Positions 5,218 to 26,473 of a stretch of DNA of 26,473 bases are shown here, piece by piece. Under the pieces are notes generated by a model that worked only from the letters and a program-made list of their open reading frames with translations, did no database searches and was not told the DNA's origin. The stretch comes from a virus, in the IMG/VR virus record IMGVR_UViG_3300046517_001306, positions 1-26,473 of that record; one strand, written 5' to 3'. The position numbers and the translations under genes are program-made. The number at the start of each line of letters is the position of its first letter. The first letter of the stretch is position 1.

Positions 5218-5431
5218 CGGCGGCGCTCCCGTGGTAGGGCCCAAGGTCCGTGACGGTCATCACGTCCAGGTCTTCCTCTGGGATAAAGATCATCCCCTTT
5301 TCTTCGCCGTGTACGCGCACCTCAAAACCATACCAATTTCGCGTGCCGTCCCACCTACCGATGAACACGCCAACGATGCTTGACGGCTTGCCGTACAGCG
5401 GATGTGCAACCTGCCACATTTTCCGCTTCAT
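5189..5431 (-). CDS. Small hypothetical protein, 80 aa
   Basis: The sequence begins MKRKMWQVAHPLYG and contains SSIVGVFIGRWDG, WYGFEVRVHGEEKGMIF and PEEDLD. The pattern of short strands with Gly turns suggests a small beta-barrel such as an SH3-like fold. I do not recognise the family. The frame is open to 5575, but the upstream part overlaps the neighbouring gene and is Arg-rich. Starts at ATG 5431 (AGGGA very close) or GTG 5461 (ten residues more) are both possible. It lies between the DUF1617-like protein and the membrane proteins. Confidence 0.5.
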   Translation of the reverse strand: MKRKMWQVAHPLYGKPSSIVGVFIGRWDGTRNWYGFEVRVHGEEKGMIFIPEEDLDVMTVTDLGPYHGSAADAQHYSGKP

Positions 5432-5493
5432 TCCCTGAAGATGATACGCGTGATGCCGCACGAGTCGTTTTTCTACATCATGAATCCCTGGTC

Positions 5494-5910
5494 TCACCTG
5501 CCTTCGTCCTGCCAACACACCAGCGGCCCGAGTGCGTCCAAATCCGCCGCGGTGATGTCCTGGTCGCCGAGCCACGCGAGATCGACCGGCCCCACCGGCA
5601 GCGTGACCTCGGCGCTACTCAGTTCCATGATCCGCGCGTGAAACGTCAGCAGGTGTTCCGGCAACACGTCCCAGATCGGTGCAGCCCCGGCGAGCGCGCG
5701 CTCGACGTCGGTCGGAGGACGTTCGCGCCCGAGTTCTTTGATGAGATCGTTGCGGAGCTCGTGGAAGTGCTGCAGCTCAGGCCGTACGACGGCCAGCAGC
5801 TTCTTGACGTGATACGCGGCTTTGATCGCGAGCTTCATCGCGATGAGGCGCTCGAATGCGTCCTTTGATGTCGCGAGCTGTCCGAGTGTCGTGGTAATCG
5901 TCGTGTTCAC
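5494..5910 (-). CDS. Helical phage protein resembling DUF1617, 138 aa
   Basis: The protein has a helical N-terminal domain with AIKAAYHVKKLLAVVRPEL, then HELRNDLIKELG, a short Pro-containing linker, a second helix pair (LLTFHARIMELSSAEVTL) and a C-terminal ITAADLDALGPLV motif. From memory, this order (Lys/Tyr helix, 'R..li..lG', 'F...i..L...ev', then 'It..dL..L..l') is that of the DUF1617 phage protein family found near tail genes of siphoviruses; its role is unknown. The start is GTG within a GTGA overlap with the large tail hub/fibre gene, so its translation is coupled to it. The family assignment is by eye only. Confidence 0.6.
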   Translation of the reverse strand: MNTTITTTLGQLATSKDAFERLIAMKLAIKAAYHVKKLLAVVRPELQHFHELRNDLIKELGRERPPTDVERALAGAAPIWDVLPEHLLTFHARIMELSSAEVTLPVGPVDLAWLGDQDITAADLDALGPLVCWQDEGR

Positions 5911-13510: not shown

Positions 13511-13909
13511 TTAGAAGTGTCCCCAGCTACCGCGCGCGACGAAGTTGGCCGAGACCGTGACGGCACCTTTGACGTCGGTATCGACCGCGGTCGTCAGCCA
13601 CGCTGGGCCGTAGTCGTATTTGGTCGGCGTGTTCAGCCGATCCGGATAGAGATAGAGCGTGGTGCCGCCGGCTGACAGGCCCGCGACATAGAGCGGATCT
13701 GACGCCGAGTCCCAGAACCCGGTCAACGTGCCCTTGAGATCGGGCAAATCCAACAGATAGACCTTGTTGGTATCCCCGAAGGCCGTGACTTCGATCGTGC
13801 CAGCGTTCCGGTCAAGCGTCCACTTCGTGAGGTTGAGAACCGGCGACGCCGCTACCACCCCATCCGGCGACACGTAGACTGCGCCGTTCTTGCCTGATGC
13901 TCTCGCCAT
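13511..13909 (-). CDS. Major tail tube protein, 132 aa
   Basis: The pattern KNGAVYVSPDGV, then LNLTKWTLDRNAGTIEVTAFGDTN (in pieces), LKGTLTGFWD and YLYPDRLNTPTKYDYGPAWL is characteristic of siphovirus tail tube proteins: a short strand start, a Trp-containing beta hairpin, then 'v.tfGD' and 'G.f.G.wd'. It would polymerise into the tube through which DNA passes. At 132 aa it is at the short end for the family, without an added Ig domain. It lies after the terminator (with one inserted gene) and before the chaperones. The start ATG follows AAGGAG with 9-base spacing, a strong site fitting a highly made protein. Its first 98 bases overlap the end of the glycosyltransferase gene in another frame. 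Confidence 0.85.
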   Translation of the reverse strand: MARASGKNGAVYVSPDGVVAASPVLNLTKWTLDRNAGTIEVTAFGDTNKVYLLDLPDLKGTLTGFWDSASDPLYVAGLSAGGTTLYLYPDRLNTPTKYDYGPAWLTTAVDTDVKGAVTVSANFVARGSWGHF

Positions 13910-14999
13910 GATTGTCTGCTCCTTGCTTCCGGCCGAGATCGGCGAGAAGGCTTTGGAGATCCCCGATTATCTGGGCCGATCGTTCGACCCAGGACATCTC
14001 GGCTACGCGAGCCGGCAATTCGGACGAGACGCGCGCGCGCCCTTGCGGGTCGGCGAGCCACGAACGAATCAAGGCCGAGGCCTGGGTTGGGTGCGTGAAC
14101 GTCGGCACCAGATCCCCGAAGACCTCGCCTACTTCCTCACGATGCGACGATATGTGAAACGCGCCGCAGGCGGCCAGTTCGTACGCCCGAGGGTTCATCG
14201 ATTCGGCGTGCTCGATGCTCGGCGCGTCCGTGCCCCAGCCTTGCGACGTGCGATAGAGATTGAGTCCGATCTTCGCCCGACGGTAGAGCGCGGCCGTCAG
14301 ACGATTGTCGATCGTTCCCCCGCGCAGGAACGGTCGGAGCTTCGGCGGCATCTTCTTCAAAAACCATTGACCGTAGATGCCCAGGTCAATACCGGTCCAG
14401 TCGATCGCCGAGAACCACTCGGTGCGTTCACGGAACGGCGAGCCGACGAAGACGACGTCGTGCGCTGGCACGGCCGCGTCGGTCTCCTGCGCGCCGGGCC
14501 GATGCTTCAGCGGATGCCACGCGTGCGCCACGTAGCCCGACCGCGGGTTCACCGCACGGAACGCCGCAACGGCCGACCGCTCATTCGTCCAGCAGCCGTC
14601 GACCAGCTTCGCCGTCCGCAGCTCCGGCTCGTCGTAGGGTGACTCCGTGAACAGGATCGTCACCGGAACGCCGGCGCGACGCAGCATGATCAGGACGTCC
14701 GGATGGAGGAACATCGCCGACACGACGAGCACGGCGTCGACCTGATGGCGGAGCGCCATGCCGATCGCGCCCTCGCTCGCCTGATAGAAAATGTCGGCCG
14801 AGTTCGGCTTCTCGAACGTCGGATCGCTCTTGCGTGCGGCCAGCCACGCCGAGCGGAGCCACTTCGACGCTCGAGCGATCCGCGCATCGAGCCGATAGTC
14901 CACGATCTGGACGCCGTGCGAGGCCAGCCCGAAGCGCAGGCCGTCCGAGACGTCTGCCGTGCTCCACGAGGCGCCTGGATGGACGAGAAGAATCTTCAC
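13812..14999 (-). CDS. CgeB-like glycosyltransferase, 395 aa
   Basis: The start region (VKILLVHPGASW) is a typical GT-B strand-loop. The C-terminal half has the donor-binding signature SMNPRAYELAACGAF followed by SSHREEV, matching the CgeB/YkvP-type (Glyco_trans_1_2) glycosyltransferases. The central part includes FTESPYDEPEL, WTNERSAV and VVFVGSPFRERTEWF, also typical of this family. It probably moves a sugar from a nucleotide donor to a protein or glycan. The gene is inserted between the tail terminator and tail tube genes. An ATG at 15011 exists, but the GTG at 14999 forms a GTGA overlap and gives the usual start of the family. The last 98 bases run into the tail tube gene; the extra C-terminal residues (after QSLLADLGRK) may be acquired read-through. 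Confidence 0.85.
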   Translation of the reverse strand: MKILLVHPGASWSTADVSDGLRFGLASHGVQIVDYRLDARIARASKWLRSAWLAARKSDPTFEKPNSADIFYQASEGAIGMALRHQVDAVLVVSAMFLHPDVLIMLRRAGVPVTILFTESPYDEPELRTAKLVDGCWTNERSAVAAFRAVNPRSGYVAHAWHPLKHRPGAQETDAAVPAHDVVFVGSPFRERTEWFSAIDWTGIDLGIYGQWFLKKMPPKLRPFLRGGTIDNRLTAALYRRAKIGLNLYRTSQGWGTDAPSIEHAESMNPRAYELAACGAFHISSHREEVGEVFGDLVPTFTHPTQASALIRSWLADPQGRARVSSELPARVAEMSWVERSAQIIGDLQSLLADLGRKQGADNHGESIRQERRSLRVAGWGGSGVAGSQPHEVDA

Positions 15000-15412
15000 A
15001 GGCTCGCCCATACCCTATAGAGCCCGCCGGCATGCTGCCAACGGAGCGACGCATCCACCGGATCGGGCTCGATGTAGCGCACGTATTCGGTCCGCTCCAT
15101 GTTCATAAACGTGTAGCCGGTAATCGCCAGCGTCTTGCCATCGAGCAGCGCGTCGATCCGCGCGGCCGCGGCCGATGAACCGGCGCTACCGGTGCCCATC
15201 TCGACATACTTCACGCGGTAGACCACGTCCTCGTAGGACCGCGCATTGAACACCAGCTCGTCGAACGCGATGACGACGCTGACGACAATGAACCGCTGCG
15301 CGCCAGGCGCGGCGAAGTCGAAGAAGACGCCGCCCGTTGCGACGGCCATCAGGGCCGCGTCCGACGCGAGCGCGGCGACCAGCGCGACGTCGATGTTCGC
15401 GCTATCGCTCAT
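14996..15412 (-). CDS. Tail terminator / tail completion protein (DUF3168-like), 138 aa
   Basis: The fold pattern is that of DUF3168 tail completion proteins: a helical start (DVALVAALASDAALMAV), GGVFFDFAAP, QRFIVVSVV, YEDVVYRVKYV, AAARIDALLDG, LAITGYTF and a C-terminal GLYRVWASL. The family member in other siphoviruses forms the ring that ends the tail tube and docks to the head. The position after the HK97 gp10-like gene agrees. The gene starts in an ATGA overlap with that gene and ends in a GTGA overlap with the glycosyltransferase. A clearly homologous domain occurs at the C terminus of the SGNH protein at the right edge of the window. Confidence 0.85.
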   Translation of the reverse strand: MSDSANIDVALVAALASDAALMAVATGGVFFDFAAPGAQRFIVVSVVIAFDELVFNARSYEDVVYRVKYVEMGTGSAGSSAAAARIDALLDGKTLAITGYTFMNMERTEYVRYIEPDPVDASLRWQHAGGLYRVWASL

Positions 15413-15819
15413 TCAGTGCCCCTGACCTGCAGACCGTTATCGACGAGCATCTGCTTCAGCCGCTCATACATCGCGCGACGGTTCCGAATGACCGGCGGCA
15501 GAAAATAGTTCCCAGGCGTAGGCTTCGCGATCTGGCCACGCGATGCGCCGGAGGCAATGTGTCGGACGGCCGTGCCATGCTCGAAGATCTGCGCGAGCTT
15601 CGACGTGTTCTTCGCCACGACCTTGACGCCGAACTTCCCGGCGCTGACGACGTCGACGCGAAGACCTTGGTTCAATTCGTCCTTTATCCCGCCCGGATAC
15701 TTGACCTGGCCTACGGCGGCGCGGGCGGCGGCGGTCACGATCCCGGCAGCCTGACCAGCCAGGCTCTCCGGCAGCTTCCGGAGTTCTTCCTGCAGCTCAG
15801 CGAGCCCTGTCCACGTCAC
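15409..15819 (-). CDS. HK97 gp10-like tail completion / joining protein, 136 aa
   Basis: The protein begins with TWTGLAELQEELRKLPESLAG, the usual 'GL.eL...L.kLp' opening of the HK97 gp10 family. A helix follows (IVTAAARAAVGQVKYP), then FGVKVVAKNTSKLAQIFEHGT and the C-terminal YFLPPVIRNRRAMYERLKQML. These proteins sit at the head-tail joint. The frame is open to 15924, but that N-terminal portion is Arg/His shadow. The GTG at 15819 has GGAGG shortly upstream and forms GTGA with the preceding stop; the end forms ATGA with the terminator gene. Length and order are normal for the family. Confidence 0.83.
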   Translation of the reverse strand: MTWTGLAELQEELRKLPESLAGQAAGIVTAAARAAVGQVKYPGGIKDELNQGLRVDVVSAGKFGVKVVAKNTSKLAQIFEHGTAVRHIASGASRGQIAKPTPGNYFLPPVIRNRRAMYERLKQMLVDNGLQVRGTE

Positions 15820-16181
15820 GACGTCACCTCCGTGATGGCCGCCACGGTCTCGACGCCGGCACCTTCTGTGTCGTCGATGTCGATCACGTTGCCGACGTGG
15901 ACGGCGCCGGCGTAGTCCGTCCACGTCGCGCGCGTGTTGATGTTCATCTCCGGATTGAAGCGACCGTTAAAGACGTGCGTCGCGTGCGCGATGATCGCCT
16001 GCGAGAAGTGCTTCTCGGCGTTCGACAGCGTCACCTTCTGGATCGCGCAGCGCCATGGCGAGTTCACCAGCGGCGCATAGACCTGCGTGAACCCACCGTC
16101 GCCATCCGGCGTGGGCGGTCCGCTCGGATTCGTGAGCGTGGCCGACTGTCGGAGGTTGCCGATGACGATGACGACGCTCAC
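15816..16181 (-). CDS. Head closure / head-tail joining protein, 121 aa
   Basis: The start (VIGNLRQSATLTNPSGP) followed by DGDGGFTQVYAPL is the hallmark of phage head-tail joining proteins: 'lr..v.l..p.......gg....w'. Later parts include WRCAIQKVT, ATHVFNGRFNPEMN and a beta-rich C terminus (VIDIDDTEGAG). It would close the connector after packaging. The start codon is GTG in a GTGA overlap with the connector gene, and the stop forms GTGA with the gp10-like gene. Gene order (connector, closure, gp10, terminator) matches HK97/SPP1-type phages. Confidence 0.83.
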   Translation of the reverse strand: MSVVIVIGNLRQSATLTNPSGPPTPDGDGGFTQVYAPLVNSPWRCAIQKVTLSNAEKHFSQAIIAHATHVFNGRFNPEMNINTRATWTDYAGAVHVGNVIDIDDTEGAGVETVAAITEVTS

Positions 16182-16933
16182 AGCACGATGCTCCCGCCGA
16201 CCGCGATGGCGTAGGGCGATGCGTAGCCGTAGTCGCGGAGCACCTGCGCAGACGCCGCCGTTTTCTTGAACGCATCCATCGTGACTTCGACGCCGTAGGG
16301 CAGCTCGATGACCTGCCCGCGACGCGCCTCATGAACGGCCGAGCGAAACGTGTCGAAGTGCGCGACGAGCAGGCAGAGAATGCCGCGCACGAGCGCCGGC
16401 ACAGCTGCTGCCGTGTCGCCGTAGCCGCACTTGTAGCGGATCTTGACCGAGCCCGTCTGGTCACGCGCGATCGGCCACGTCTTCCCATAGAGCGGCTCGA
16501 CGAAGCCCGGGACGGCGTAGTCGCCGGCCGGGATCACGGTCGTAAAGAGGTTCGTCGCAGGCGACCCGCCGTCATTAAAGTTGCGGAGCACGCCGGTCGA
16601 GTCCACGTACTGAACGCTCAGAACGGACTGGAGCGGCGGGTGCGGCAGCTCGATGCGCGCGCCGCGGCCCATCGCGCCGATGAACGGGAACCGGTCAAGC
16701 CAGAACTCGCGCGTCTGCGTCAGCGGCGATCGACTCGTCTGCTCGAAGAAATACGACGTCGCGGCATCGATGAAGACGGAGATCTGCGCCGCGTCGAGCT
16801 GGCCGAGGGCCCTGACGTGCTGCTGGGCGTAACTCAGCGTGACGGCCTGGTTCACTGGCGACCCTCCCTGCACGGTCGAGACGAAATTATCGATCGTCGT
16901 GATCTCTCGGCCGTAGCTGTGGATGCTAGACAT
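16178..16933 (-). CDS. Head-tail connector / adaptor protein, 251 aa
   Basis: The N-terminal domain has YAQQHVRALGQLDAAQISVFIDAATSYFFEQ (in pieces), the helical opening of gp6/gp15-type adaptor proteins ('lk.hlr......d..i...i.aA...iE..t'). It continues with FWLDRFP, a beta segment (LQSVLSVQYVDSTGV, RNFNDGG) and a C-terminal helical part (PALVRGILCLLVAHFDTFR). This is the common arrangement of proteins that attach to the portal ring. A helical tail ends with YGYASPYAIAVGG. The frame extends upstream to 17398 as Arg/Ser-rich shadow; the ATG at 16933 overlaps the glycosyltransferase stop by 8 bases and has only a weak ribosome site. Confidence 0.85.
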   Translation of the reverse strand: MSSIHSYGREITTIDNFVSTVQGGSPVNQAVTLSYAQQHVRALGQLDAAQISVFIDAATSYFFEQTSRSPLTQTREFWLDRFPFIGAMGRGARIELPHPPLQSVLSVQYVDSTGVLRNFNDGGSPATNLFTTVIPAGDYAVPGFVEPLYGKTWPIARDQTGSVKIRYKCGYGDTAAAVPALVRGILCLLVAHFDTFRSAVHEARRGQVIELPYGVEVTMDAFKKTAASAQVLRDYGYASPYAIAVGGSIVL

Positions 16934-17459
16934 GTGGTTGACCGATCTCGACGAGCACCTCGTCACGCCAGGCGATCTCGTCCGGCGTCCAGCCCATCGT
17001 CTGAAGGAAGTGGAGGTCGCCACAGTCGCGCTGCTCGCCCCACTGCCCCATCTTTGCCGGGTTGTTCGGCGTGAAGAACATCGGCGTGCCGACGTTGCCC
17101 CACCGGATCTCGCGCTCCTTCCAGAGCAGCCCGCCATTCGGCAACCGCATCCTGAACATCGATACGCCGGTTGGGTTGGCAATGATGGCCGACGCGAGCA
17201 GCATGCGTGCGCCCGGCGCGTATGTGTCGTCGTCGTCGATGTGCGCGAGATACTTGCCGTGCGCCAGCGGCGTCGCGATGTTGCGCTCGGTGCTGCCCCA
17301 ATCGTGGCCGGGTTCGCAGGAAACGCAGCGCACGTGGCCGACCGCTCGCGTCTGGACGTTGCCGACGACGATGATCTCGTCGCCGGGCCAGCACTCAATA
17401 GACGCGAGCGTGGCCTTGAGCGACGGCCGGTTGACAGTTGCGACGATGTAGGAAATCAC
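16926..17459 (-). CDS. GT2-type glycosyltransferase, 177 aa
   Basis: The protein opens with ISYIVATVNRPSLKATLASI, the usual first strand and helix of a GT-A enzyme. It carries HIDDDDTYAPGA at residues 74-85, the donor-binding acidic (DXD-like) motif. GKYLAHID is the third strand. The sequence WGNVGTPMFFTP and a downstream CGDLHFLQ supply further acidic residues where the catalytic base is expected. At 177 aa it is at the short end for GT2 enzymes. It starts with GTG overlapping the next glycosyltransferase (GTGA) and lies immediately before the head-tail connector. Donor sugar and acceptor cannot be read from the sequence. Confidence 0.8.
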   Translation of the reverse strand: MISYIVATVNRPSLKATLASIECWPGDEIIVVGNVQTRAVGHVRCVSCEPGHDWGSTERNIATPLAHGKYLAHIDDDDTYAPGARMLLASAIIANPTGVSMFRMRLPNGGLLWKEREIRWGNVGTPMFFTPNNPAKMGQWGEQRDCGDLHFLQTMGWTPDEIAWRDEVLVEIGQPHV

Positions 17460-18127
17460 GCCGCGCTCCTGAGCTTCGCGACCGCGTCGGCGACGGCGGA
17501 CGCGTGCGTGCCGTTCCAGTAGTCCGGGTCGCGCCGATAGATGTCGTTCTGGTTCCCCTCGTTAAACGTCTGATCCGGCGCGAAGCCGATCCAGTCGTGC
17601 GCGATCTCGACGTGCGTCAGGATCTCCGACCGACCGAAGACGGCCATCACGTCCCGCAGGAAGACGTCGCCCCACGCGATGCCTGGATGCCAGAAGTAGC
17701 CCATGCGATCGGCCGCCGCCTTCGAGATGACCGCGAACGGGTAGTGACTCTCGTTGTGCGTCCGCGTGCCGAAGCAGAACAGGCCATCGCCGGCGAACTT
17801 GTTCGCGGCGTCGAGTATCAGCTCGTCCCAGCCGAGCGTCTTGAAAATCATGTCGTCGTTCCCGCACATGAGCACGTCGCCGAGCGCGGCGGCGTAGAGC
17901 TCGTTAAAGAACGTCGCCATGCTCGCGTAGCCGCCGAGCCTCTTGCCGACGACGGCGCGACACCCGAACGCCTCCAGCACCGGCGGCGTCAGGACGTCGT
18001 CGTCGTCGATGCGGAACACCAGCTCGGACGCCGTGCCGCTCGCGGTCGCCTCGTACGATTCAATCATCGTCGCGAGTCGCGTCGGGCGCCGTCGCGTCGG
18101 CACCAGCACGGAGATTTTTGTGAACAC
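17456..18127 (-). CDS. GT2-like glycosyltransferase, 223 aa
   Basis: The N-terminus (ISVLVPTRRRPTRLATMIES) and the acidic motif RIDDDDVL at residues 39-46 are typical of GT-A fold enzymes. A second acidic motif, CGNDDMIF, sits at about residues 88-95, and HPGIAWGDVFLRD lies in the C-terminal half, where GT2 enzymes have an acceptor-site Asp. The arrangement with two DD motifs resembles glycosyltransferases found beside phage structural genes. The start is GTG with AAAGGAG five bases away, one of the strongest ribosome sites of this block. Its first 68 bases overlap the zinc-ribbon gene. The stop forms GTGA with the next glycosyltransferase. Confidence 0.78.
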   Translation of the reverse strand: MFTKISVLVPTRRRPTRLATMIESYEATASGTASELVFRIDDDDVLTPPVLEAFGCRAVVGKRLGGYASMATFFNELYAAALGDVLMCGNDDMIFKTLGWDELILDAANKFAGDGLFCFGTRTHNESHYPFAVISKAAADRMGYFWHPGIAWGDVFLRDVMAVFGRSEILTHVEIAHDWIGFAPDQTFNEGNQNDIYRRDPDYWNGTHASAVADAVAKLRSAA

Positions 18128-18296
18128 GCGGCTCCTTTATCTTCGGGATTTCGCTCGGCGGCGGCGCGGCAGCCTCGACCGCCACGGTCGCGGTCGCAGC
18201 CACGTGACGGCAGTCGGGGCATTGATACTGGCCGCCGCCGAGCGATTCCATCTCAACGTCCTTGCCGAGCGTCGCGTAGCATTGCTCGCACTTCAT
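18060..18296 (-). CDS. Small zinc-ribbon protein, 78 aa
   Basis: Two knuckles, MKCEQCYATL at the start and YQCPDCRHV near residue 27, form a CxxC-CxxC zinc ribbon. A low-complexity Ala/Pro tail follows (VAVEAAAPPPSEIPK), with a charged C terminus. Such proteins often act as small nucleic-acid- or protein-binding modules; no specific role is visible. GGGAGG lies upstream of the ATG at 18296. The C-terminal 23 codons overlap the next gene, and the overlap carries that gene's ribosome site, so part of the tail may be constrained by that rather than by protein function. Confidence 0.7.
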   Translation of the reverse strand: MKCEQCYATLGKDVEMESLGGGQYQCPDCRHVAATATVAVEAAAPPPSEIPKIKEPRVHKNLRAGADATAPDATRDDD

Positions 18297-18308
18297 TCGT
18301 TTCCTCCC

Positions 18309-18530
18309 TCAGCTCGCAGGAGCGTCGCTGAAGTCGACGTAGTAGTAAGACCCGACGGCGAACTGCTCGAGCGCCTTCGGATTGTCGATGCCGAGCTGGA
18401 TCTGTCCCCACGGCGTCGCCTTCGTGAAGCGGACGTTCTCGTCGCTCTTCTGCGCGTCGTTCTCGTAGACCGTCGAGAACGCGACGGCGTTGCCGTCGAT
18501 CTTCTCGCACCGAACTTTCGCTCGCACCAT
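18309..18530 (-). CDS. Small conserved phage protein, 73 aa
   Basis: The protein begins MVRAKVRCEKIDG, then VAFSTVYEND, ENVRFTKATPWGQIQLGI, NPKALEQFAVG and ends YYYVDFSDAP. I recognise this overall pattern (a short basic strand start, 'FtkaTP.G.i.l.i.Np.Al.qf..G..YyvdF') as a family of small beta-rich proteins of unknown function widespread in siphovirus and myovirus structural modules. No enzymatic motif is present. The ATG follows AAGGAGG closely. It sits between the radical SAM gene and the zinc-ribbon gene, probably a normal structural-module gene around which the glycan island has grown. Confidence 0.7.
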   Translation of the reverse strand: MVRAKVRCEKIDGNAVAFSTVYENDAQKSDENVRFTKATPWGQIQLGIDNPKALEQFAVGSYYYVDFSDAPAS

Positions 18531-18542
18531 GCTGTGCCTCCT

Positions 18543-20138
18543 TCAGTGACCGGCGTAGCTCAAGCCGCTCGCCGCCGTCAGGACGCCGTGTGCCTCTGCT
18601 TCTTCCTGCTGCTTCCTGATGCGAACGTCTTCATCCCATTCCGCCTTCGCCCACCCTTCCGAGACGAGGAAGTCGAACATCTCGCGCTTGATCTGGAACA
18701 TCTCCTCGACCGTAGCGCCGTGCGGCCGGACGAGGATCTCGTCGCGCGCCGAGAACCCGACAATCCACTGGTTGTCGTAGTTGTAGTCGACAATGTCGAG
18801 GCCGCTCTCCTGCGGATGCGTCCACCATCGGCTCCCCGGATACGGGATGCCAACGGCGAGGTTGCACGAGTCGAGATACGGCTTGACGGTCTTGAGCCAC
18901 GCCATTGTCTCGCGCGCCGTCTCGAGCGTCTCGCCGGCGAGCCCGGCGACCAGGAACGCGATCGTGTAGAAACCGTGACGCTTCGCCGTCATCAGCGCGC
19001 GCGTGTTCTGCTCGACGGTCGTGCCCTTCTGGTTCGCGTCAAGCACGCGCTGGCTGCCGGACTCGATCCCGAAGCACGTCACCTTGCAGTTCATCAGTTT
19101 CAGCGACTCGGCAACGTGGTCGTCCATCGTGTTGACGCGCGTGTGGATGCGTGCGGCGAACGACCCTGGCCCGAGGTCGGCATGGATGGCTTCCGAGAGC
19201 TCGCGGAGCTTCGTGCGATGCAGCGTGTAGGTGTCGTCCTGAAACTTGAACATCCGAACGCCCTTGTCCATGACCGTCCGCATCTCGGCGATGATGTTCT
19301 GCGGCGAACGGTAGCGCGGCTTCTGACCGATCCATGGCGTCGAGCAGTAGGTGCATTTGTATGGGCAGCCGCGCGTCCCGATGAGCGACATCACGGCGCC
19401 GCTCGCGTCCGGATGCGCGTCGTTGGGGAAATACCGCTTTTTCATCACCGCGACGCCGTCGTTGTAGATGTGATCGTGCGGCAGGAGATCCCAGGCCGGA
19501 AATGGGATCGCATCGAGGTCCATCGCGTCGGCCTTGTCGCCGTAGTAGTACGGCTGGAGTTGCCCGGCGTCCCAATCGCTCAGCAGTTGGAGCGTCGCGG
19601 CCTCGCCTTCCATCACGACGACCGAGTCGAAGAGCGCGCGGCCGTCGGCAGCGCGGTAGTCTCGGCGCTCTCGGAGGACGCCCTTGTAGTGATACGCGTC
19701 CTGGCGCCCGGCTTCCTTCGTCTCGCGCGGCTCGTAGGACGGGTGCGGGCCGCCGGCGACGACGAGCGCATCCGGCGCGCGGTCCTTGATGTAGGCGGCG
19801 AGCTCGAGCGCCTCGCCAAACTGCGGTGTGCAGAAACCGAACATGTGGACGTCAGCGTCCATCACCGACTCCGGAAGATGGATGTTCCCCTCGTAGCGCT
19901 TGTCGAGCATCGACGTGACGGCGACGTCGTGGCCGTGCGCGCGAAGCAGGCCGGCGATGTAGAGCACGCCGAGCGGGATGTTCGTCTTCGAGTCGGCGAG
20001 CCACGGCGACGACGGAAGGACGAGATGGATCTTCCGGCGCGCGATCTCTCGGATCGGTAGACCGGATGTCGGCGCGTCGCACGCGCTCCGATCGCTCATC
20101 TGGTAGCCGGACGCGGCCATCGACAGTGGCTTGCCCAT
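18543..20138 (-). CDS. B12-binding-type radical SAM protein, about 531 aa
   Basis: Numbering is from the alternative GTG at 20141. After a leader of about 35 residues, the N-terminal domain (IHLVLPSSPW, NIPLGVLYIAGLLRAHGHDV, MFGFCTPQF, DALVVAGGPHPSYEP) matches the Rossmann-like cobalamin-binding domain of class B radical SAM enzymes; the classical DxHxxG cobalamin motif is not evident. The radical SAM core carries GTRGCPYKCTYCS, with the cluster cysteines at about residues 259, 263 and 266 (CxxxCxxC). FKFQDDTYT and TCFGIESGSQRVLD are typical core strands. A C-terminal extension (about 420-532) is of unknown type. Such enzymes make methylations, methylthiolations or rearrangements of unactivated carbons. 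The next upstream gene overlaps its start as GTGA or TGATG; both starts are plausible. Confidence 0.85.
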   Translation of the reverse strand: MGKPLSMAASGYQMSDRSACDAPTSGLPIREIARRKIHLVLPSSPWLADSKTNIPLGVLYIAGLLRAHGHDVAVTSMLDKRYEGNIHLPESVMDADVHMFGFCTPQFGEALELAAYIKDRAPDALVVAGGPHPSYEPRETKEAGRQDAYHYKGVLRERRDYRAADGRALFDSVVVMEGEAATLQLLSDWDAGQLQPYYYGDKADAMDLDAIPFPAWDLLPHDHIYNDGVAVMKKRYFPNDAHPDASGAVMSLIGTRGCPYKCTYCSTPWIGQKPRYRSPQNIIAEMRTVMDKGVRMFKFQDDTYTLHRTKLRELSEAIHADLGPGSFAARIHTRVNTMDDHVAESLKLMNCKVTCFGIESGSQRVLDANQKGTTVEQNTRALMTAKRHGFYTIAFLVAGLAGETLETARETMAWLKTVKPYLDSCNLAVGIPYPGSRWWTHPQESGLDIVDYNYDNQWIVGFSARDEILVRPHGATVEEMFQIKREMFDFLVSEGWAKAEWDEDVRIRKQQEEAEAHGVLTAASGLSYAGH

Positions 20139-20854
20139 CACGCCGACCTTTTCCTGAGACAGATATTGACGAAGGAGTACGTGTGAACGAAATTGCCTCT
20201 GTATTCTAAGTCTGTTCCGCCGACGAAGTTGGCAGGAATCATCGTCGGGATCGCGCGAACAAAGTCTGCCGTGTAGGCCGTGAACTGGAGGTGTCGCGAC
20301 GGCGATGATTCAAAGTGCTGGCCAGCATCTCGGAAGTAGTCCGACGTAATGAAGATGTAGCCGCCTGGTTTCGTGACGCGACAGAGTTCGGCGAGCGCTC
20401 GGTCGTGGTGGGCGGCGTCGACGTGCTCGATTGTCGAGATGCACATCGCGACATCGAAGGCGTCCGACGCGAGCGTCACCATATCCTCGCACGGCACGTC
20501 GTAGAGCGGAAGAGCGATGCCGTAGTGCGAGCGCTGCGACGCGACGTCGCCGGTCACGTCGCCGTACTTCATCGAGTCTGTCAACGTCACGTTCGACCAG
20601 CCGGCGACGGCCGCGAGGTATGGCGGAAAGAACGATCCGCCACTGCCGACGTCGACGAGAGACGCCGTCTTCGGAACGCCGAGTTCCTCGAGCTGCTGCA
20701 GAATGGACGCGTATTCCCAGAGCCGGTGCTCGTGCCAGTCGCGATGGCCGACGCCGCTGGCCCGCATGTCGCGCTCGAACGAGCGGAGCGGCTCGGCGTG
20801 CGGCAGAAACGCATAGTCGCTCGGGTCCAGCGATCGCGTGTAGGGTCTCGTCAT
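20138..20854 (-). CDS. Class I SAM-dependent methyltransferase, 238 aa
   Basis: Motif I is visible as LVDVGSGGSFF (about residues 66-76). FDVAMCISTIEHVD is the post-motif strand with the His-containing 'iEHv' of the Methyltransf_11 group, and VTKPGGYIFITSDYF supplies motif III. The protein would methylate a small molecule, sugar or protein using S-adenosylmethionine. Because it lies among glycosyltransferases, a sugar O-methyltransferase is the most natural guess. The frame is open to 20959, but the ATG at 20854 follows the TAA of the previous gene by one base and the upstream part is shadow. The end overlaps the radical SAM gene. Confidence 0.8.
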   Translation of the reverse strand: MTRPYTRSLDPSDYAFLPHAEPLRSFERDMRASGVGHRDWHEHRLWEYASILQQLEELGVPKTASLVDVGSGGSFFPPYLAAVAGWSNVTLTDSMKYGDVTGDVASQRSHYGIALPLYDVPCEDMVTLASDAFDVAMCISTIEHVDAAHHDRALAELCRVTKPGGYIFITSDYFRDAGQHFESSPSRHLQFTAYTADFVRAIPTMIPANFVGGTDLEYRGNFVHTYSFVNICLRKRSA

Positions 20855-20855
20855 G

Positions 20856-21608
20856 TTAGTAGGGCTTCGCGCCGTCGTGACGGCTCCAGAGTTCGCCGAG
20901 GCTGACGCCCTCGGCCGCGAGTTGCCGGTGCGCCTCAGCAAGGTCGCGCTCGCCCGCATGCGCCGGATGGAAAAAAAGTGTCTCGCGGATGCGGACGCAC
21001 TCGGCGCCGGCGGAGTGGAGCTTGTACTGGAAGAGCGTCTGCGCGTGGCCCCACGACGACAGCCGCTCGTTCAGGCCGCCGACGCGGTCGAAGACGTCGC
21101 GACGCGCCATCCAGACACCGGCGTCGATGCACGTATACTCAAAGTCGATGCCGCCAAGCACGCCGGCGCCGGTCGTCCGCCAGCCCATCTCCTCGCAGGC
21201 TGCGACGTCGCAGTGCATGTGCCGGCCGTTGCTCGTCACGAAGCCGCTCCAGTCGGCCGGCTGCGCGTCGACGATCGCCGCGAACTTCGCGACCGCCGAG
21301 AAGTCGAGCAGGTAGTCCGCGCGCGTGAAGAAAACCCACGGCGTCGCGGCCTCCCGCACGGCCGCGTTCGTCGACCATGCATGCGTGCGGGACTGGTCGC
21401 CATGCTTGAATGAGCGAACGACAACAGGCACCGGAAAGTCTTGATCGGCTACCAGGCCGTCGATCGCGTCGCGCGGATCGTCTGTCGCGTTATCGATGAC
21501 GACGACAGCAGCGACCCGTGAGAAGTCCTGGCGCCTGATCGAGTGGAGCGCGGCGGACAGGTTCGCCAGCGTCAGGCTCCGAAAGTACGTCAGACAGATC
21601 GTGATCAT
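20856..21608 (-). CDS. GT2-family glycosyltransferase, 250 aa
   Basis: The opening MITICLTYFRSLTLANLSAALHSI is a GT-A first strand and helix. VVVIDNATDDPR is the second strand, with the usual Asp-Asn in it. WVFFTRADYLLD (about 91-102) is at the DXD position, though it reads RAD rather than DXD, which is unusual. Later come DAGVWMARRDVFDRVGGLNERLSSWGH, in pieces, which match the ggfDE-type acceptor region of GT2 enzymes (here GGLNERL), and HAGERDLAEAHRQ. It starts in an ATGA overlap with the preceding glycosyltransferase; the longer frame to 21728 is shadow. Sugar and acceptor are unknown. Confidence 0.8.
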   Translation of the reverse strand: MITICLTYFRSLTLANLSAALHSIRRQDFSRVAAVVVIDNATDDPRDAIDGLVADQDFPVPVVVRSFKHGDQSRTHAWSTNAAVREAATPWVFFTRADYLLDFSAVAKFAAIVDAQPADWSGFVTSNGRHMHCDVAACEEMGWRTTGAGVLGGIDFEYTCIDAGVWMARRDVFDRVGGLNERLSSWGHAQTLFQYKLHSAGAECVRIRETLFFHPAHAGERDLAEAHRQLAAEGVSLGELWSRHDGAKPY

Positions 21609-22231
21609 CGGAGCGCCTCGACGAGCGGCGGATACGCCTCGAGCCGGAAGATGAACGTCGCGCGGTCGACGTGTGCCCACCGGACGCCGCGCTCGTAAAC
21701 AAGCGCGCGGATCATCTCCCAGTCCCACGAGAAGACGCCGTTAAACGGCAGGCGGTCGTCAATAAAGTGCTCGCGGAGTACCGAGCGCCGCCACAGCGGT
21801 TGACCGAGGTCGATGCCAGCGCCCATCGGCGGAGCCAGGCGGAGTTCGCGCGTCCCTGCGTAGAGGCACGAGCTATAGACCATGCCCAGGCCGCGGTCAC
21901 TGTCGAGCGCGGCGACGAGCGGCTCGAAGTGGTCAGGCAGATACGCGTTGTCGTCGCTCAGGAAGCAGACGTATTCTCCGGTTGCATAGCTCAGGCCGAG
22001 CGACGCCGGCGAGTTGCCCCAATCGTTCGTCCGAAACGGCGTGCTATAGAGCGCGACGTCGTTATCGGCGCAGAGCGTCGCGATATCGACGAGCGCCTCT
22101 GACGGCGGATCGTCCGCGACCACGATGTGCTCGACGTTCGGCATGGTGAGCTTCTTCACGGACGCCACGCAGCGACGCAGGCACACGACGCGATCGTAGA
22201 CGGTCGTGATGATTGAGACCGTCGGCCTCAC
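21605..22231 (-). CDS. GT2-family glycosyltransferase, 208 aa
   Basis: The protein starts TVSIITTVYDRVVCLRRCVASV, then HIVVADDPPSEAL, the nucleotide-binding strands of GT-A enzymes. FLSDDNAYLPDHFEPL at about residues 90-105 is the acidic metal-binding motif. The C-terminal part has GQPLWRRSVLREH and FSWDWEMIRALVYERG, where Asp/Glu residues of the catalytic site are expected (DWEM). The frame is open to 22375 but starts there with low-complexity Arg. The GTG at 22231 gives a GTGA overlap with the CgeB-like gene and begins the protein at its first strand. The end overlaps the next glycosyltransferase as ATGA. Confidence 0.8.
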   Translation of the reverse strand: MRPTVSIITTVYDRVVCLRRCVASVKKLTMPNVEHIVVADDPPSEALVDIATLCADNDVALYSTPFRTNDWGNSPASLGLSYATGEYVCFLSDDNAYLPDHFEPLVAALDSDRGLGMVYSSCLYAGTRELRLAPPMGAGIDLGQPLWRRSVLREHFIDDRLPFNGVFSWDWEMIRALVYERGVRWAHVDRATFIFRLEAYPPLVEALR

Positions 22232-23133
22232 GTCGCCACCTCGACGGCCATCGTCTTCAGGACGGTCGAGAGCCGCTGCGCGTAGGTGTCGTCCTTGAGT
22301 TGGTCGGCGCAGCGAGCGCGGACCAGCTCTGCGGCGTCTGGCTCGGCGAGCAGCGCGCGCACGATCTCGACGCACTCAGCGTCAGAGCGGAACATCGGCA
22401 AGCTCGGGATCCTCCTGGCGATCTCCTCGCGCCATTCGCTGACCACGAGCGCGCCGCAGGCCAGCGCCTCGTAGATGCGCGGGTTCATCGCGGTCGCCTG
22501 AACGCCTGCGGCGTTGTAATGGTGCTGCTCTCGAAAGACGTTCACGACGATCCGCGTGCCGCCGTAGAGCGCAGCCGTCACGGCCGGCGGGACGTTGTCG
22601 GATATCGTCAGAGCGTTCACGGCCGGATCGCTCCAATAGCCGCCGACAACGTAACTCAAGAGCTTCGCCTCGGCGAGCGCGCTGAGCACGCGTTCACGTC
22701 GCGAATTCGCGCCGCCGACGAAGCCGACGCGGTTCGCCGGATAGCCGGTCGAATGAACGTGGAGATGCGGATCGTAGCAGACGGGTAGATACGACGCGTT
22801 GCCGTGGCGGTGTAGCGTCGCCTGGTCGTTAACGAAGACGTGGTCGAAGTGACGCGAGAACGTCGCCGTGTCGTCGACCTCGTACGGCTCGTCGAGCAAC
22901 CAGACGGCCGTTGCGCAGCCGGCGCGCGCGCCGCCCCACCGTTGCGAGAACCGTCGGCCATGAACGACGAAGAGCAGGTCTGGCTTGAACATCGAGATCT
23001 GCCGGTCGAGGTTCGGCGCGTCCCACGACGTATGCTCATACACGATGTTCAGATCGCGTGCAGCGGCGGCCAGGCCATTCGTGAAGACGTCTCCGCACGA
23101 GAGGAACTGGTAGTCGACGCCGAAGACCCTCAT
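22228..23133 (-). CDS. CgeB-like glycosyltransferase, 301 aa
   Basis: The signature AMNPRIYEALACGAL at residues 215-229, followed by SEWREEIARRIP, is the donor-binding motif of CgeB/YkvP-type glycosyltransferases. The N-terminal half has FKPDLLFVVHGRRF, AVWLLDEPYEVDD, HVFVNDQATLHRHG and VGFVGGANSRRERVL, all in the order known for the family. It is paralogous to the enzyme encoded near the tail tube gene (motif SMNPRAYELAACGAF), though about 95 residues shorter. It starts with ATG in an ATGA overlap with the GGGPS-motif gene. It is predicted to be cytoplasmic, with a nucleotide-sugar donor; the acceptor is unknown. Confidence 0.85.
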   Translation of the reverse strand: MRVFGVDYQFLSCGDVFTNGLAAAARDLNIVYEHTSWDAPNLDRQISMFKPDLLFVVHGRRFSQRWGGARAGCATAVWLLDEPYEVDDTATFSRHFDHVFVNDQATLHRHGNASYLPVCYDPHLHVHSTGYPANRVGFVGGANSRRERVLSALAEAKLLSYVVGGYWSDPAVNALTISDNVPPAVTAALYGGTRIVVNVFREQHHYNAAGVQATAMNPRIYEALACGALVVSEWREEIARRIPSLPMFRSDAECVEIVRALLAEPDAAELVRARCADQLKDDTYAQRLSTVLKTMAVEVAT

Positions 23134-23726
23134 CGCGCGACCTCAGTAATAGCACCGAGCGCTTCGTCAAGAGCGACAATCGGAAACGCCGTCAACGCCG
23201 AGCGCCTGGAGCAGTTCAGGACTTCGACGCCTGCGTTGGCGAGCGGCGCCTTCAGCGACTCGAACGCCTCGCGCATCTCGTCATATGGCGAATAGTCGCG
23301 GACCGTTGGCGGGTGTTCGCCGAACCAATGCGATCGCCCGTCGGCGCTGAGGCTCATGTCGTAGCCGAGGAGCAGGATGCGCGTCGCGCCGAGATGCACG
23401 GCCAGGTTGATCGCTTGATAGCCGCCGTTCTTCCCGGCGCGCAGACCGGTCGGATCGGTCTCCAGCCCGTCCGGGCCGGTATTGCGGAGCACCGTCACGC
23501 CAGGCCAGTAAAGACCGATCGATGACTCAATCGAGCACTTCAGGCCGGTGAAGTCCGGCGCGCCTCGGTGATACTCCCACCACTTGTAATCTGCCGCATA
23601 GAGCACGTCAGCCCACGGCGCGAGCCGGTAGGCGTCATTGATGGCGATAACAGAGCAGCGGCCTCGAAGCCGGTCCACGTCGGCCTGCGTCAGGCTCGGG
23701 CCGCCGCCGATGCACGCGAACGTCAT
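23130..23726 (-). CDS. GGGPS-motif, DUF115-like protein, 198 aa
   Basis: The start FACIGGGPSLTQADVDRLRG carries the GGGPS loop, followed by VIAINDAYRLAPWADVLYAAD, then GGYQAINLAVHLGATRILLLGYDM. This matches a Rossmann-like family related to DUF115 (MAF_flag10/MptE-like), found in flagellin glycosylation loci and in many phage genomes. In flagellar loci, members take part in transferring sialic- or pseudaminic-acid-like sugars, so a glycan role here is reasonable, although in phages it is undetermined. The frame extends to 23891 as Arg-rich shadow; the ATG at 23726 shares a base with the previous stop (TGATG). It overlaps the CgeB-like gene by ATGA. Confidence 0.7.
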   Translation of the reverse strand: MTFACIGGGPSLTQADVDRLRGRCSVIAINDAYRLAPWADVLYAADYKWWEYHRGAPDFTGLKCSIESSIGLYWPGVTVLRNTGPDGLETDPTGLRAGKNGGYQAINLAVHLGATRILLLGYDMSLSADGRSHWFGEHPPTVRDYSPYDEMREAFESLKAPLANAGVEVLNCSRRSALTAFPIVALDEALGAITEVAR

Positions 23727-24259
23727 CACGACGAGAAGCTCCTTCCAGGCGTGCCGGTCTTGCCCTGCATGCCTGGGACGCCCTGCGGGCCCGGCTTGCC
23801 CTCGCGCCCGTCGCGGCCGGCCTTCACGGCGAGCGTCCACTTTGTCGCGCCATCGCCCGGCCGCTCGTTCGTCGCGTCCCTCGCGTACCACATCCCGCCG
23901 GCGTGCGTGACGACGTCGCCCTTTACGTACGTGGTGGTCGGGTCGTAGACGCCGCGGTAGAGCGGCGCGCTCGCGAACTTGACCGCGCCGTCGATGGGCG
24001 ACCCGTCAGGGCGGACCAGCCGATACGTCCGCTCGTCGACCTGCTCGAGCCGGGCGCCGTCGAGCGTCCCGTCGCGACCTGGAGCGCCGTCCGCGCCGTC
24101 CTTCCCGGCCGGTCCGGGCGGCCCGTCCTTGCCGGCGAGAAGTTCCGCCGTCTCCAGCGCCGCCAGGCGGTCGTCGATCGCCCGCTCCAGCGACTCCAGG
24201 TAGTCGCGGATGACCGGCGCGATGCCGTTGATGACCGCGACGAGATCAGACTTCAACAT
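23726..24259 (-). CDS. Collagen-like virion protein with carbohydrate-binding-type module, 177 aa
   Basis: An N-terminal helical part (residues 1-40, LESLERAIDDRLAALET, a trimerising-coil type) leads into Gly-X-Y repeats at about 43-65 (GKDGPPGPAGKDGADGAPG). A beta domain follows with YRGVYDPTTTYVKGD, then GGMWYARDATNERPGDG and WTLAVKAGRDG, the pattern of the ChiC/CBM5-12-like domains that recur in phage structural proteins. A second Gly-X-Y segment (about 148-172, GREGKPGPQGVPG) forms the C terminus. It would be an elongated trimeric surface or fibre protein. The ATG at 24259 has GGGGAAG upstream. It is the first gene before the glycan island and a candidate acceptor for it. Confidence 0.75.
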   Translation of the reverse strand: MLKSDLVAVINGIAPVIRDYLESLERAIDDRLAALETAELLAGKDGPPGPAGKDGADGAPGRDGTLDGARLEQVDERTYRLVRPDGSPIDGAVKFASAPLYRGVYDPTTTYVKGDVVTHAGGMWYARDATNERPGDGATKWTLAVKAGRDGREGKPGPQGVPGMQGKTGTPGRSFSS

Positions 24260-24272
24260 CGGCTGCTTCCCC

Positions 24273-24698
24273 TCAGAGGACGGAGACCTGCACGCGGTAG
24301 AGGCCGCCACGCCGGAGCCACCGGAGCGACGGATCGACTTCATCCAGCGAAACCAATCGCGTCCGCTCTTCACGCTGCATCGTCATCCACGTATAGCCGG
24401 CGACGACAAGCGTCTGCCCGTCGAGCAGCACATCGATCCGCGCCGCGGCGGACGCGATGTCGCTGCCGACCTGAGCCGACTTCGGATCGAAGAGGATCAG
24501 CGCTTCGATGAGATAGACGCCGTCCTCATACGCGCGCGCGCCGAAGGCCGTGACGTCCTGCTCCGTCGCGAGATGGACGATTACGAACCGCTTCAGATTT
24601 GGCGGCGCCCAATCCAACCAGACGCCGCCTGGACAGAGCGCCGAGAGCGTCGCATCGGCGGCGAGCTTCGCAATGATCGCGTTGCCGATCGCCGCCGA
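24273..24698 (-). other. DUF3168-like domain fused to the SGNH protein
   Basis: This is the C-terminal 141 residues of the SGNH protein. They align without large gaps to the 138-aa tail terminator encoded at 14996-15412. Shared pieces in the same order include A.LA.DA.L, GGV..D.A.P, RF.., AR.YED.VY, AARID.LLDG.TL, GYT.M.M, VD.SLRW and GGLYRV. By eye, about 30 of the last 55 residues are identical. Confidence 0.85.
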
Positions 24699-26473
24699 GC
24701 CGTGCGTTGACGGCGGGATGACCGCCGCGAATGTCGGAACAATACTCTGGAGTCGTTGGACCGGCGATAGATCCGGCGGTTGCGAGGCGGCGTAGACATG
24801 CGCCGGCAACGGCAGCGCACGCACGGCCAGCGGAATCGACGGGATGTTCCAGGATGCGTTTTTCGGGCCGGTCTGCGCATCCCAGGTGACCGCCCACATC
24901 GCGACGATCTGCGTAATCTCGACGACGGACAGCGGCGGCTGGGGCGTCGGTTGGCTCGCGGCCGGTAATGTCGGAACGATGCTCCGGAACCGCTGTAACG
25001 GCTGTGGATCAGGCAGCGCCGAGGCCGCGTAGACGTACGCGGGTAACGACGATACAGGCGCTGAAGGCGGAATCGGCGGAATGTTCCACGCGGCACTTTT
25101 CGGCGCCGTCTGCGCGTTATTGCTCGTTTGCCAAGAGGAAACCAGCAGGTTCAGCTCGATCGCGCTCAAGAAGGCCGTGGGCGTCGGCTGCTGTCCTGTT
25201 GGGAGGGTCAGCGGCGCAACTTTCACCGGGGCGTTGATCGGCCACGCGACAAGCGGCCCGACATCGATCGGCCACGCGCCGACGATCTGGTTCAACTTCG
25301 CAGCCGAGAGCGGCGTCTGGAGGAGCTGGTTCGCTGATGGCTGCTGAATGAACGCTTCGTTCGGCAGGGTCAGGCTGCTTGAGTCCGTCGGCGGCGTCAG
25401 GTTCGCGCCGCCGTTGTCCGCGACGTCGAGCCCGGAGCCGAGCGAGAGCGTGAAGACGCCACTCAAGGCCGGCGAGAAGCCGAGCGTGACGTGTGTGCTG
25501 TCAACCGTCGTAACGGTGACGGTGGACCCCGTGACCGACCCATTGTCGTAGACACGGAAGCCGCCCATGCCTGACGCCGGCAGGATCGGCGTCGTCGGCA
25601 CCGCGAACGTGATCGTCGCGAGCGTCTTGGCCGCGTTGAGACTGATCGACGCGACGGTCGGGCCGCGACCGCTGCCGGCCGCGCCGCCGTAGAACTTCTC
25701 GATAATCGCTGCGGCCCAGCGGTTCGCCACGATCGCGGCGCTCGCATCTGACTGATAATGCACGCCGTCATTGGGCGTGATGTCGTAGAGCACCGGCCCG
25801 TTCCAGGCGCCCGTGACCGTGTTCCACGCTTCGCGGATGGCCTCGCGGATGTTGTCGAGCGCCGCGCGGCGATCCGGCGGCGCGCCGGTCGTCACGTCCC
25901 CGAGTTGCGCCCAGAGCACCGTCGCGCCGGGATAGTCGCTGCGCAGGTCTGAGACGAGTTGCGCAATCGCCGTCTTGTAGGTCGCGACACTTTCCGTGCT
26001 GGTGTCCACGGAGTCGTTCGCGCCGAGATGGACCAGGAAATACTTGGGCGGGTTGACGATCCCGGCAGCCGTGATCGCTGCCGCCATCGCCGTATAGTTC
26101 GCGTTCCCCTTCGGCCAGAGGTTCCCCGTCAGATTCGGGTTGACGAGCCCAGAGCTGCCGACGCCGACGTTGATGAACGCGACAGGATACGTGCTCGTTG
26201 CCGCAACGAGCGTCGTCCCCACGAGCGGCCAGAACGATCCGTTCGTCGTGCTGGCGTTCGTCGGGTCGTTGGCCGGCCCCCAGGTCGTCCCATTCCAGCA
26301 GGTCGCAATGATTCCGCTGCCGTTGGCCGTCGTGGTCTTCGCGTTCGTGACACGTCCCTGCGTGATCGAGTCGCCCAGGCAGGGGATGACGTCGCCGATG
26401 CCCACGAAGGTCACGGTCGCCGTGACAGCGTGGTCGTTCGTGAACCTGACGGTCAGCGTGCCCTGACCCTTGG
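24273..26473 (-). CDS. SGNH-esterase protein with C-terminal tail-terminator-like domain, partial at right edge
   Basis: Numbering is from the GTG at 26414, but the frame stays open to the right edge, so the real start lies outside. Residues 12-20 hold CLGDSITQG (nucleophile Ser16), about 129-134 HLGAND (block III, Asn133) and 216-219 DGVH (Asp/His of block V): all SGNH-hydrolase blocks are present, so it should be an active esterase, perhaps deacetylating a polysaccharide. Residues of about 251-345 form an Ig-like or beta domain (ITFAVPTTPILPASG, GFRVYDNG, LSGVFTLSLGSGLD). Residues 360-567 hold Pro-rich repeats with a 79-residue period. Residues 573-713 are a DUF3168-like domain similar to the tail terminator in this window (AAARIDVLLDGQTL, RGGLYRV). 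It may be a virion-associated enzyme anchored to the tail. Confidence 0.8.
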   Translation of the reverse strand, partial: KGQGTLTVRFTNDHAVTATVTFVGIGDVIPCLGDSITQGRVTNAKTTTANGSGIIATCWNGTTWGPANDPTNASTTNGSFWPLVGTTLVAATSTYPVAFINVGVGSSGLVNPNLTGNLWPKGNANYTAMAAAITAAGIVNPPKYFLVHLGANDSVDTSTESVATYKTAIAQLVSDLRSDYPGATVLWAQLGDVTTGAPPDRRAALDNIREAIREAWNTVTGAWNGPVLYDITPNDGVHYQSDASAAIVANRWAAAIIEKFYGGAAGSGRGPTVASISLNAAKTLATITFAVPTTPILPASGMGGFRVYDNGSVTGSTVTVTTVDSTHVTLGFSPALSGVFTLSLGSGLDVADNGGANLTPPTDSSSLTLPNEAFIQQPSANQLLQTPLSAAKLNQIVGAWPIDVGPLVAWPINAPVKVAPLTLPTGQQPTPTAFLSAIELNLLVSSWQTSNNAQTAPKSAAWNIPPIPPSAPVSSLPAYVYAASALPDPQPLQRFRSIVPTLPAASQPTPQPPLSVVEITQIVAMWAVTWDAQTGPKNASWNIPSIPLAVRALPLPAHVYAASQPPDLSPVQRLQSIVPTFAAVIPPSTHGSAAIGNAIIAKLAADATLSALCPGGVWLDWAPPNLKRFVIVHLATEQDVTAFGARAYEDGVYLIEALILFDPKSAQVGSDIASAAARIDVLLDGQTLVVAGYTWMTMQREERTRLVSLDEVDPSLRWLRRGGLYRVQVSVL
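24714..25187 (-). repeat. Two tandem 79-residue repeats in the SGNH protein
   Basis: Residues 410-488 and 489-567 are homologous: PTPTAFLSAIELNLLVSSW against PTPQPPLSVVEITQIVAMW, then AQTAPKSAAWNIPPIP against AQTGPKNASWNIPSIP, LPAYVYAAS against LPAHVYAAS, and QPLQRFRSIVPT against SPVQRLQSIVPT. A shorter related piece (TPLSAAKLNQIVGAWPI) lies at about residues 367-383, so there may have been a third copy. Confidence 0.8.

Follow-up and report, generated by a model that had tools for sequence, protein, structure and literature searches.

The locus

The subject of this report is an island of carbohydrate-modification genes within a phage head-tail operon, carried on a 26,473-base linear virus record (IMG/VR IMGVR_UViG_3300046517_001306) whose full length is called the window below. 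The island combines glycosyltransferases with a class I methyltransferase (MT) and a B12-binding radical S-adenosylmethionine (rSAM) enzyme, and its core recurs in nearly constant order in the virion operons of other phages. Every late and island gene lies on the minus strand. Read from the high coordinate, the order is GDSL-like gene, COL, DUF115, CgeBa, GT2a, GT2b, MT, rSAM, two small genes, GT2c, GT2d, connector (CONN), closure (CLOS), gp10, terminator (TERM), CgeBb, tail tube and tape measure. Because position 26473 is the contig end, the upstream portal gene is missing from the window.

24273 to 26414, minus strand: GDSL-esterase-like protein that carries repeats and, at its C-terminus, a second tail-terminator domain; runs off the contig end
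23726 to 24259, minus strand: COL, collagen-like virion protein with a CBM5/12-like domain (PF01391)
23130 to 23726, minus strand: DUF115/PHROG4603 sialyltransferase-like glycosyltransferase (PHROG4603)
22228 to 23133, minus strand: CgeBa, CgeB-like glycosyltransferase (PF13524)
21605 to 22231, minus strand: GT2a, GT2 glycosyltransferase (PF00535)
20856 to 21608, minus strand: GT2b, core GT2 glycosyltransferase (PF00535)
20138 to 20854, minus strand: MT, class I SAM methyltransferase (PF08241)
18543 to 20138, minus strand: rSAM, B12-binding and radical SAM enzyme (PF04055 and PF02310)
18309 to 18530, minus strand: 73-aa protein, not conserved in the cassette
18060 to 18296, minus strand: zinc-ribbon protein, 78 aa, accessory
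17456 to 18127, minus strand: GT2c, core GT-A glycosyltransferase (PHROG14945 and AlphaFold2 model)
16926 to 17459, minus strand: GT2d, core GT2 glycosyltransferase (PF00535; invariant DDDD motif of the DXD type)
16178 to 16933, minus strand: head-tail connector/adaptor (PHROG442, 5e-13)
15816 to 16181, minus strand: head closure (weak PF05521 match and position)
15409 to 15819, minus strand: gp10/Neck1-like protein (PHROG5, 5e-5)
14996 to 15412, minus strand: tail terminator (PF11367, 7e-6)
13812 to 15011, minus strand: CgeBb, CgeB-like glycosyltransferase (PF13524), directly before the tail-tube gene
13511 to 13909, minus strand: major tail (tube) protein (PHROG10528, 5e-6)

Overlaps of 4 nt join DUF115/CgeBa, GT2a/GT2b, GT2c/GT2d, CONN/CLOS, CLOS/gp10 and gp10/TERM, with a GTGA overlap at CgeBa/GT2a provided that GT2a starts at 22231, and 1-nt overlaps are found at COL/DUF115 and MT/rSAM. 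A preliminary description of this DNA had reported mostly overlapping genes on one strand that run unbroken into the connector, closure, gp10 and terminator genes, and the open reading frames, overlaps and strand are as it claimed. Its structural genes proved real (connector, neck, terminator, tail tube and tape measure), and profiles bore out its six glycosyltransferases, DUF115, class I methyltransferase, B12-binding rSAM and collagen-like protein.

A conserved core in virion operons

Scanning IMG/VR with the rSAM sequence returned 32 loci and with an rSAM profile one more, distant locus; scans with GT2b and GT2c profiles added about 15 further contigs, to a total of 50 distinct core-bearing contigs. 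Several are near-duplicates (L006/L027, L009/L010, L016/L017 and window/L002/L003), so independent types are fewer than 50. The core order GT2b-(MT)-[rSAM or replacement]-GT2c-GT2d was found on a single strand in 49/50 contigs, as far as each reaches, and a virion gene lies within 5 kb of the core in 45 of the 46 contigs with enough flank. The sole exception on both counts is L024, a 116-kb contig with the genes separated, in which the MT gene overlaps a terminase-like gene. Such recurrence of order is, on the sequences compared, more than chance. The neighbourhood comparison proposed in the preliminary description supports its reading, in that the larger part of the set is found together in other phages, again within the head-tail region.

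The core occurs in two unrelated head-tail lineages. Lineage A carries terminase PHROG9, a protease-capsid fusion (PHROG617) and portal PHROG2271, followed by COL-DUF115-CgeBa-GT2a-core-connector. In lineage B the head genes are another set (PHROG760, 766 and 264, with adaptor Ad1 PHROG477), and the adaptor is followed by the core together with another GT2 and GT4 enzymes, then Neck1. The core sits between terminase and capsid genes in L014 and after the connector in L018. In the lineage-B contigs L016, L017 and L025, GT2c and GT2d are fused into a single protein of about 406-409 amino acids (aa).

The radical SAM enzyme

The rSAM protein matches PF04055 at 2e-20 and the B12-binding family PF02310 at 6e-12, both over cut-off, with the B12-binding domain preceding a radical SAM domain whose CxxxCxxC cysteines (C258, C262 and C265) are invariant in the alignment; conserved N- and C-terminal motifs are YQMS and YAGH. 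Its best NCBIfam models are HpnJ (111 bits vs a cut-off of 578) and PhpK, and its nearest solved structure is AprD4, both by sequence and by coarse fold.

No close relative was found in 50,697 GenBank phage records (best 26%). A pattern scan of 84,980 bacterial and archaeal species genomes gave one copy, on a metagenome-assembled genome (MAG) contig that is itself phage, and among 397 other Pseudomonadota genomes the best similarity was 33%. The cassette-bearing MAG contig L034, from a Sulfuricaulis bin, was not used as host evidence, being itself phage and weakly binned. By these searches the enzyme is an undescribed family that is phage-only or nearly so.

Across contig pairs, the median amino-acid identity of rSAM is 81%, vs 51-61% for GT2b, MT, GT2c and GT2d, while identity at fourfold sites is similar (0.44 vs 0.38-0.42 for the neighbours). 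High amino-acid identity at similar fourfold-site identity indicates that rSAM is under much stronger purifying selection. Recent transfer was rejected as the source of this conservation, because divergence at fourfold sites almost reaches that of the neighbours; search bias was weakened as an explanation, since the rSAM-independent GT2b and GT2c scans yielded only known rSAMs, the replacement enzyme described below, or slots with neither.

Two rSAM copies are irregular. In L031 (10001-12859), a 417-aa intein-like insert (frame residues 266-682) lies right before the third cysteine of CxxxCxxC, a position typical of active-site insertion; it begins with CFVQGT and ends with ATHN before C. In L022 (9100-10701), the rSAM frame holds one in-frame TGA and may be a pseudogene or reflect a sequencing error.

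Exchange at the rSAM position

In seven contigs with GT2c plus GT2b or MT, the rSAM slot is occupied by a protein of 401-413 aa, here termed CMT (C-methyltransferase). In the three tested, PF08421, PF13489 (Methyltransf_23) and PF08484 are all over cut-off. The best solved relative, over the full length, is D-mycarose 3-C-methyltransferase (E 8e-40), followed by TcaB9 and other sugar 3-C-methyltransferases, so that CMT is assigned as a TylCIII/TcaB9-type sugar 3-C-methyltransferase, unrelated to rSAM. Among the cassettes, the slot holds rSAM in 28, CMT in 7 and both in 0. Searches of whole contigs gave the same picture: each rSAM contig searched has a single PF02310 domain, against none in 3 CMT contigs, and PF08484 is present in 3/3 CMT contigs and 0/18 rSAM contigs. 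One to three changes of slot content are needed, depending on the gene tree. The rSAM tailoring step of the preliminary description thereby gains independent support.

The other enzymes of the island

In Pfam profile searches, PF13524 matches CgeBa (E 6e-16) and CgeBb (1.5e-14), and PF00535 matches GT2a (2e-15), GT2b (8e-8) and GT2d (6e-5). The best NCBIfam model for GT2a is PglI, at a score far under cut-off; GT2b matches TagF and chondroitin synthase in profile searches, and GT2d matches PglI-type and RmlT glycosyltransferases. No Pfam match was found for GT2c. It matches the glycosyltransferase family PHROG14945 at 6e-17, and its AlphaFold2 model (predicted local distance difference test, pLDDT, 89) has GT-A glycosyltransferases as best Foldseek matches in the PDB (SpsA, 1e-9); on this PHROG match and confident model, GT2c is a predicted GT-A glycosyltransferase.

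The DUF115 protein matches PHROG4603, 'alpha-2,3-sialyltransferase', at 3.5e-47 over most of its length, and relatives occur in 75 GenBank phage records, e.g. gp10 of PAJU2, in the head-tail region. Sequence searches found no solved relative of DUF115, and nothing useful for CgeBa among PDB sequences. MT matches PF08241 at 1e-11 and, weakly, the mycofactocin oligosaccharide methyltransferase MftM; its role is probably sugar O-methylation. The window enzymes lack a membrane segment, except for one borderline stretch in CgeBb, and a search of 18 contigs gave no nucleotide-sugar dehydratase; both results fit cytoplasmic use of host donors.

The zinc-ribbon gene, counted as part of the cassette in the preliminary description, is present only in the nearest relatives L002, L003 and L029, and the 73-aa gene does not occur in other lineages and is missing even from L003. 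Both were rejected as essential partners, being missing from other contigs. The same rSAM-GT2c interval holds a cysteine-containing protein of 55-59 aa in L006 (11586-11765), L017 (11602-11772) and L031 (12861-13028), in place of the zinc-ribbon and 73-aa genes of the window.

Sub-modules and candidate acceptors

COL matches the collagen family PF01391 at 4e-8 and, weakly, CBM5/12, as well as PHROG profiles for a portal C-terminal extension and for tail fibres. COL, DUF115 and CgeBa co-occur, in lineage A only; contigs without COL also lack both enzymes (L009 is cut at its end), and COL adjoins DUF115-CgeBa in all contigs showing that region. CgeBb directly precedes the tail-tube gene in every contig with both. 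In the window these two genes overlap by 98 nt in different frames. COL-DUF115-CgeBa and CgeBb-tail tube each behave as a sub-module of their own. From gene adjacency, COL is a candidate acceptor of the DUF115/CgeBa sub-module and the tail tube a candidate acceptor of CgeBb; we infer that each set serves its neighbour and that both lineages use a glycan which the core produces or modifies. The collagen-like protein had been put forward, beside the tail tube and the capsid, as a possible acceptor for the whole set. It cannot be the general acceptor of the core, because lineage B has the core and no collagen-like gene in the sequences read. The single pathway of the preliminary description is partly supported: the enzymes are glycosyltransferases and tailoring enzymes, most of which travel together, but one fixed pathway with one acceptor finds no support.

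Proposed function and alternatives

The interpretation builds on what was read from the sequence: to which families the genes belong, that their order is conserved, that they are confined to virion operons, that rSAM is under purifying selection, and that rSAM and CMT exclude each other in the slot. A glycan, its donor sugars, its acceptors, its attachment to the virion and the chemistry of the rSAM step are what we infer. We consider it probable, with appreciable doubt, that the island is a phage cassette for building and tailoring a glycan, and that its enzymes act in the host cytoplasm to glycosylate virion proteins. The cassette would be expressed together with the head-tail genes. GT2b, GT2c and GT2d, as soluble GT-A-type transferases, would assemble a short oligosaccharide from host nucleotide sugars, which MT would O-methylate and on which rSAM would modify a sugar carbon. 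Lineage-specific enzymes would initiate the glycan on the virion protein that goes with them, or join it to that protein. For DUF115, CgeBa and GT2a this would be the collagen-like protein and for CgeBb the tail tube; in lineage B the GT4 enzymes would play this part.

For rSAM, GenK and GenD1 provide the precedent: they are class B rSAM enzymes that C-methylate sugars, whereas the related AprD4 deoxygenates one, an aminosugar pseudodisaccharide (PMC5461906). The window enzyme shares the domain architecture of these three, all of which act on sugars, although the similarity is distant. AprD4, as the nearest structure, and HpnJ, as the best NCBIfam model though under cut-off, also count in favour of a sugar-related role. 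Because the slot is swapped with sugar C-methyltransferases, and given this precedent, C-methylation of a sugar is by analogy the most likely role, with AprD4-like deoxygenation as the alternative. A stronger claim is offered tentatively, at somewhat under even odds in our judgement: in two or more unrelated virion lineages, phages may build a C-branched, partly O-methylated particle glycan with a phage-only B12-type rSAM enzyme, and an unrelated sugar C-methyltransferase may be exchanged for this enzyme in the same slot.

Several points weigh against the interpretation as a whole or against its rSAM step. The contigs are metagenomic and many are near-duplicates, and L024 carries the genes apart and not in a clear virion operon. 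MT is missing from six cassettes, and the lineage-A type L087/L088 lacks both rSAM and CMT, the slot in L088 being filled by a GT2 gene, so that these steps are dispensable. No named NCBIfam cut-off was exceeded by rSAM (HpnJ, PhpK, AprD4 and BchE tested), and its full AlphaFold2 model was poor (pLDDT 57, shallow alignment) and served for a coarse fold match only. A shared slot argues for a common role without proving that the reaction is identical: enzymes of the CMT family use nucleoside diphosphate (NDP)-4-keto-sugars as substrates, whereas the carbons methylated by class B rSAM enzymes are unactivated.

The alternative that survives best, although we hold it unlikely, keeps the enzymes on a virion glycan and gives rSAM a chemistry other than methylation, such as deoxygenation (AprD4), ring contraction (HpnJ) or epimerisation. 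That AprD4 is the nearest structure and HpnJ the nearest NCBIfam model speaks for it; the former is a diol dehydratase of the radical SAM type (PMC5461906), and the latter acts after glucosamine transfer (PMC12583986). Sugar 3-C-methyltransferases nevertheless take the slot in other contigs, the B12-binding domain is well conserved (all rSAM contigs searched pass the PF02310 cut-off), and an AprD3-like partner reductase was not identified among the cassette genes.

It is improbable that the head-tail operon is simply a tolerant insertion site whose genes are independent morons. COL-DUF115-CgeBa, CgeBb, MT, GT4 and the small zinc-ribbon genes do come and go, PAJU2 carries a different mixture in the same region, and the rSAM tree mixes virion lineages and disagrees with the GT2c tree. 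Such independence is difficult to reconcile with a core order that hardly varies across 50 contigs whose amino-acid identity is about 50%, or with a replacement of rSAM that is slot-specific and mutually exclusive.

A role in DNA hypermodification, in which the glycosyltransferases would decorate modified bases of the phage genome, has a precedent in virus glycosyltransferases that add diverse glycans to DNA (Pyle 2024, as cited in PMC12619734), and we judge it more improbable still. The cassette is located in head-tail operons, and a DNA C5-methylase is present on only 4/18 contigs. Base hydroxymethylases of the thymidylate-synthase type (PF00303) were found on 0/18 contigs with a working control, and Tet_JBP (PF12851) on 0/19 without a positive control, on contigs that may be fragments. 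Modification of the host surface, for serotype conversion or superinfection exclusion, is very unlikely, for although serotype-changing phage glycosyltransferases are known (PMC12619734), the cassette enzymes include no flippase or clear membrane glycosyltransferase (only CgeBb and the lineage-B enzyme c7 show a single borderline hydrophobic stretch each), overlaps tie the genes into the late virion operon, and a tyrosine integrase was not seen on most contigs.

Comparison with known systems

If the tentative claim of an rSAM-made, C-branched particle glycan is correct, the rSAM step would be, to our knowledge, the first radical chemistry in virion glycosylation; the part of the literature covered contained no report of a phage rSAM enzyme in glycosylation. 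Phage virion glycosylation is so far known from few cases with few enzymes, and a conserved multi-enzyme cassette with radical tailoring, common to uncultured phages of several lineages, would mean that phages make their own elaborate, modified glycans. The slot swap also offers a direct route to the reaction of a radical SAM family that lacks an assignment, which is a common problem. Cassette phages are predicted to rely on a cobalamin-supplying host.

Virion glycosylation by phage glycosyltransferases is established in the mycobacteriophages Che8, Corndog and Myrna (PMC12363180), with capsid and tail tube as acceptors according to accounts of Freeman 2023 in PMC12363180 and PMC12619734. Like the cassette, these systems use phage-encoded glycosyltransferases. 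The mycobacteriophage papers name single ones (Che8 gp110, Corndog gp38), whereas seven candidates and two tailoring enzymes are predicted in the window. Neither GT2b nor CgeBb had a match in the 50,697 GenBank phage records, and GT2c matched Pelagibacter phage HTVC008M only, at 28%. The core enzymes were thus not found to be homologous to the glycosyltransferases known from sequenced phages, mycobacteriophages among them; such homology is not strictly defining for a virion glycosylation system.

The cultured Pseudomonas phage PAJU2 (gp10-gp12; 4974-6917) has a DUF115 homologue, an unassigned 275-aa protein and a class I methyltransferase, flanked by the head closure gene and the neck/terminator genes. 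DUF115 and a methyltransferase thus share their head-tail position with the window, but this stretch of PAJU2 contains no rSAM, GT2 core or collagen-like protein. TylCIII/TcaB9 represent the family that replaces rSAM in relatives; they differ from it in sequence and mechanism and are absent from the window. Judged from gene content, what is new relative to known virion glycosylation is the larger conserved cassette and the new rSAM family.

The GDSL-like gene

The association of the GDSL-like gene (24273-26414) with the island is uncertain. Its product matches PF00657/PF13472 at E ~3e-7 and has proline-rich repeats. The preliminary description had not mentioned its second tail-terminator domain: the C-terminal domain is 46% identical to TERM over 136 aa, and by this similarity the terminator domain has been duplicated, with the second copy fused to an esterase-like protein.

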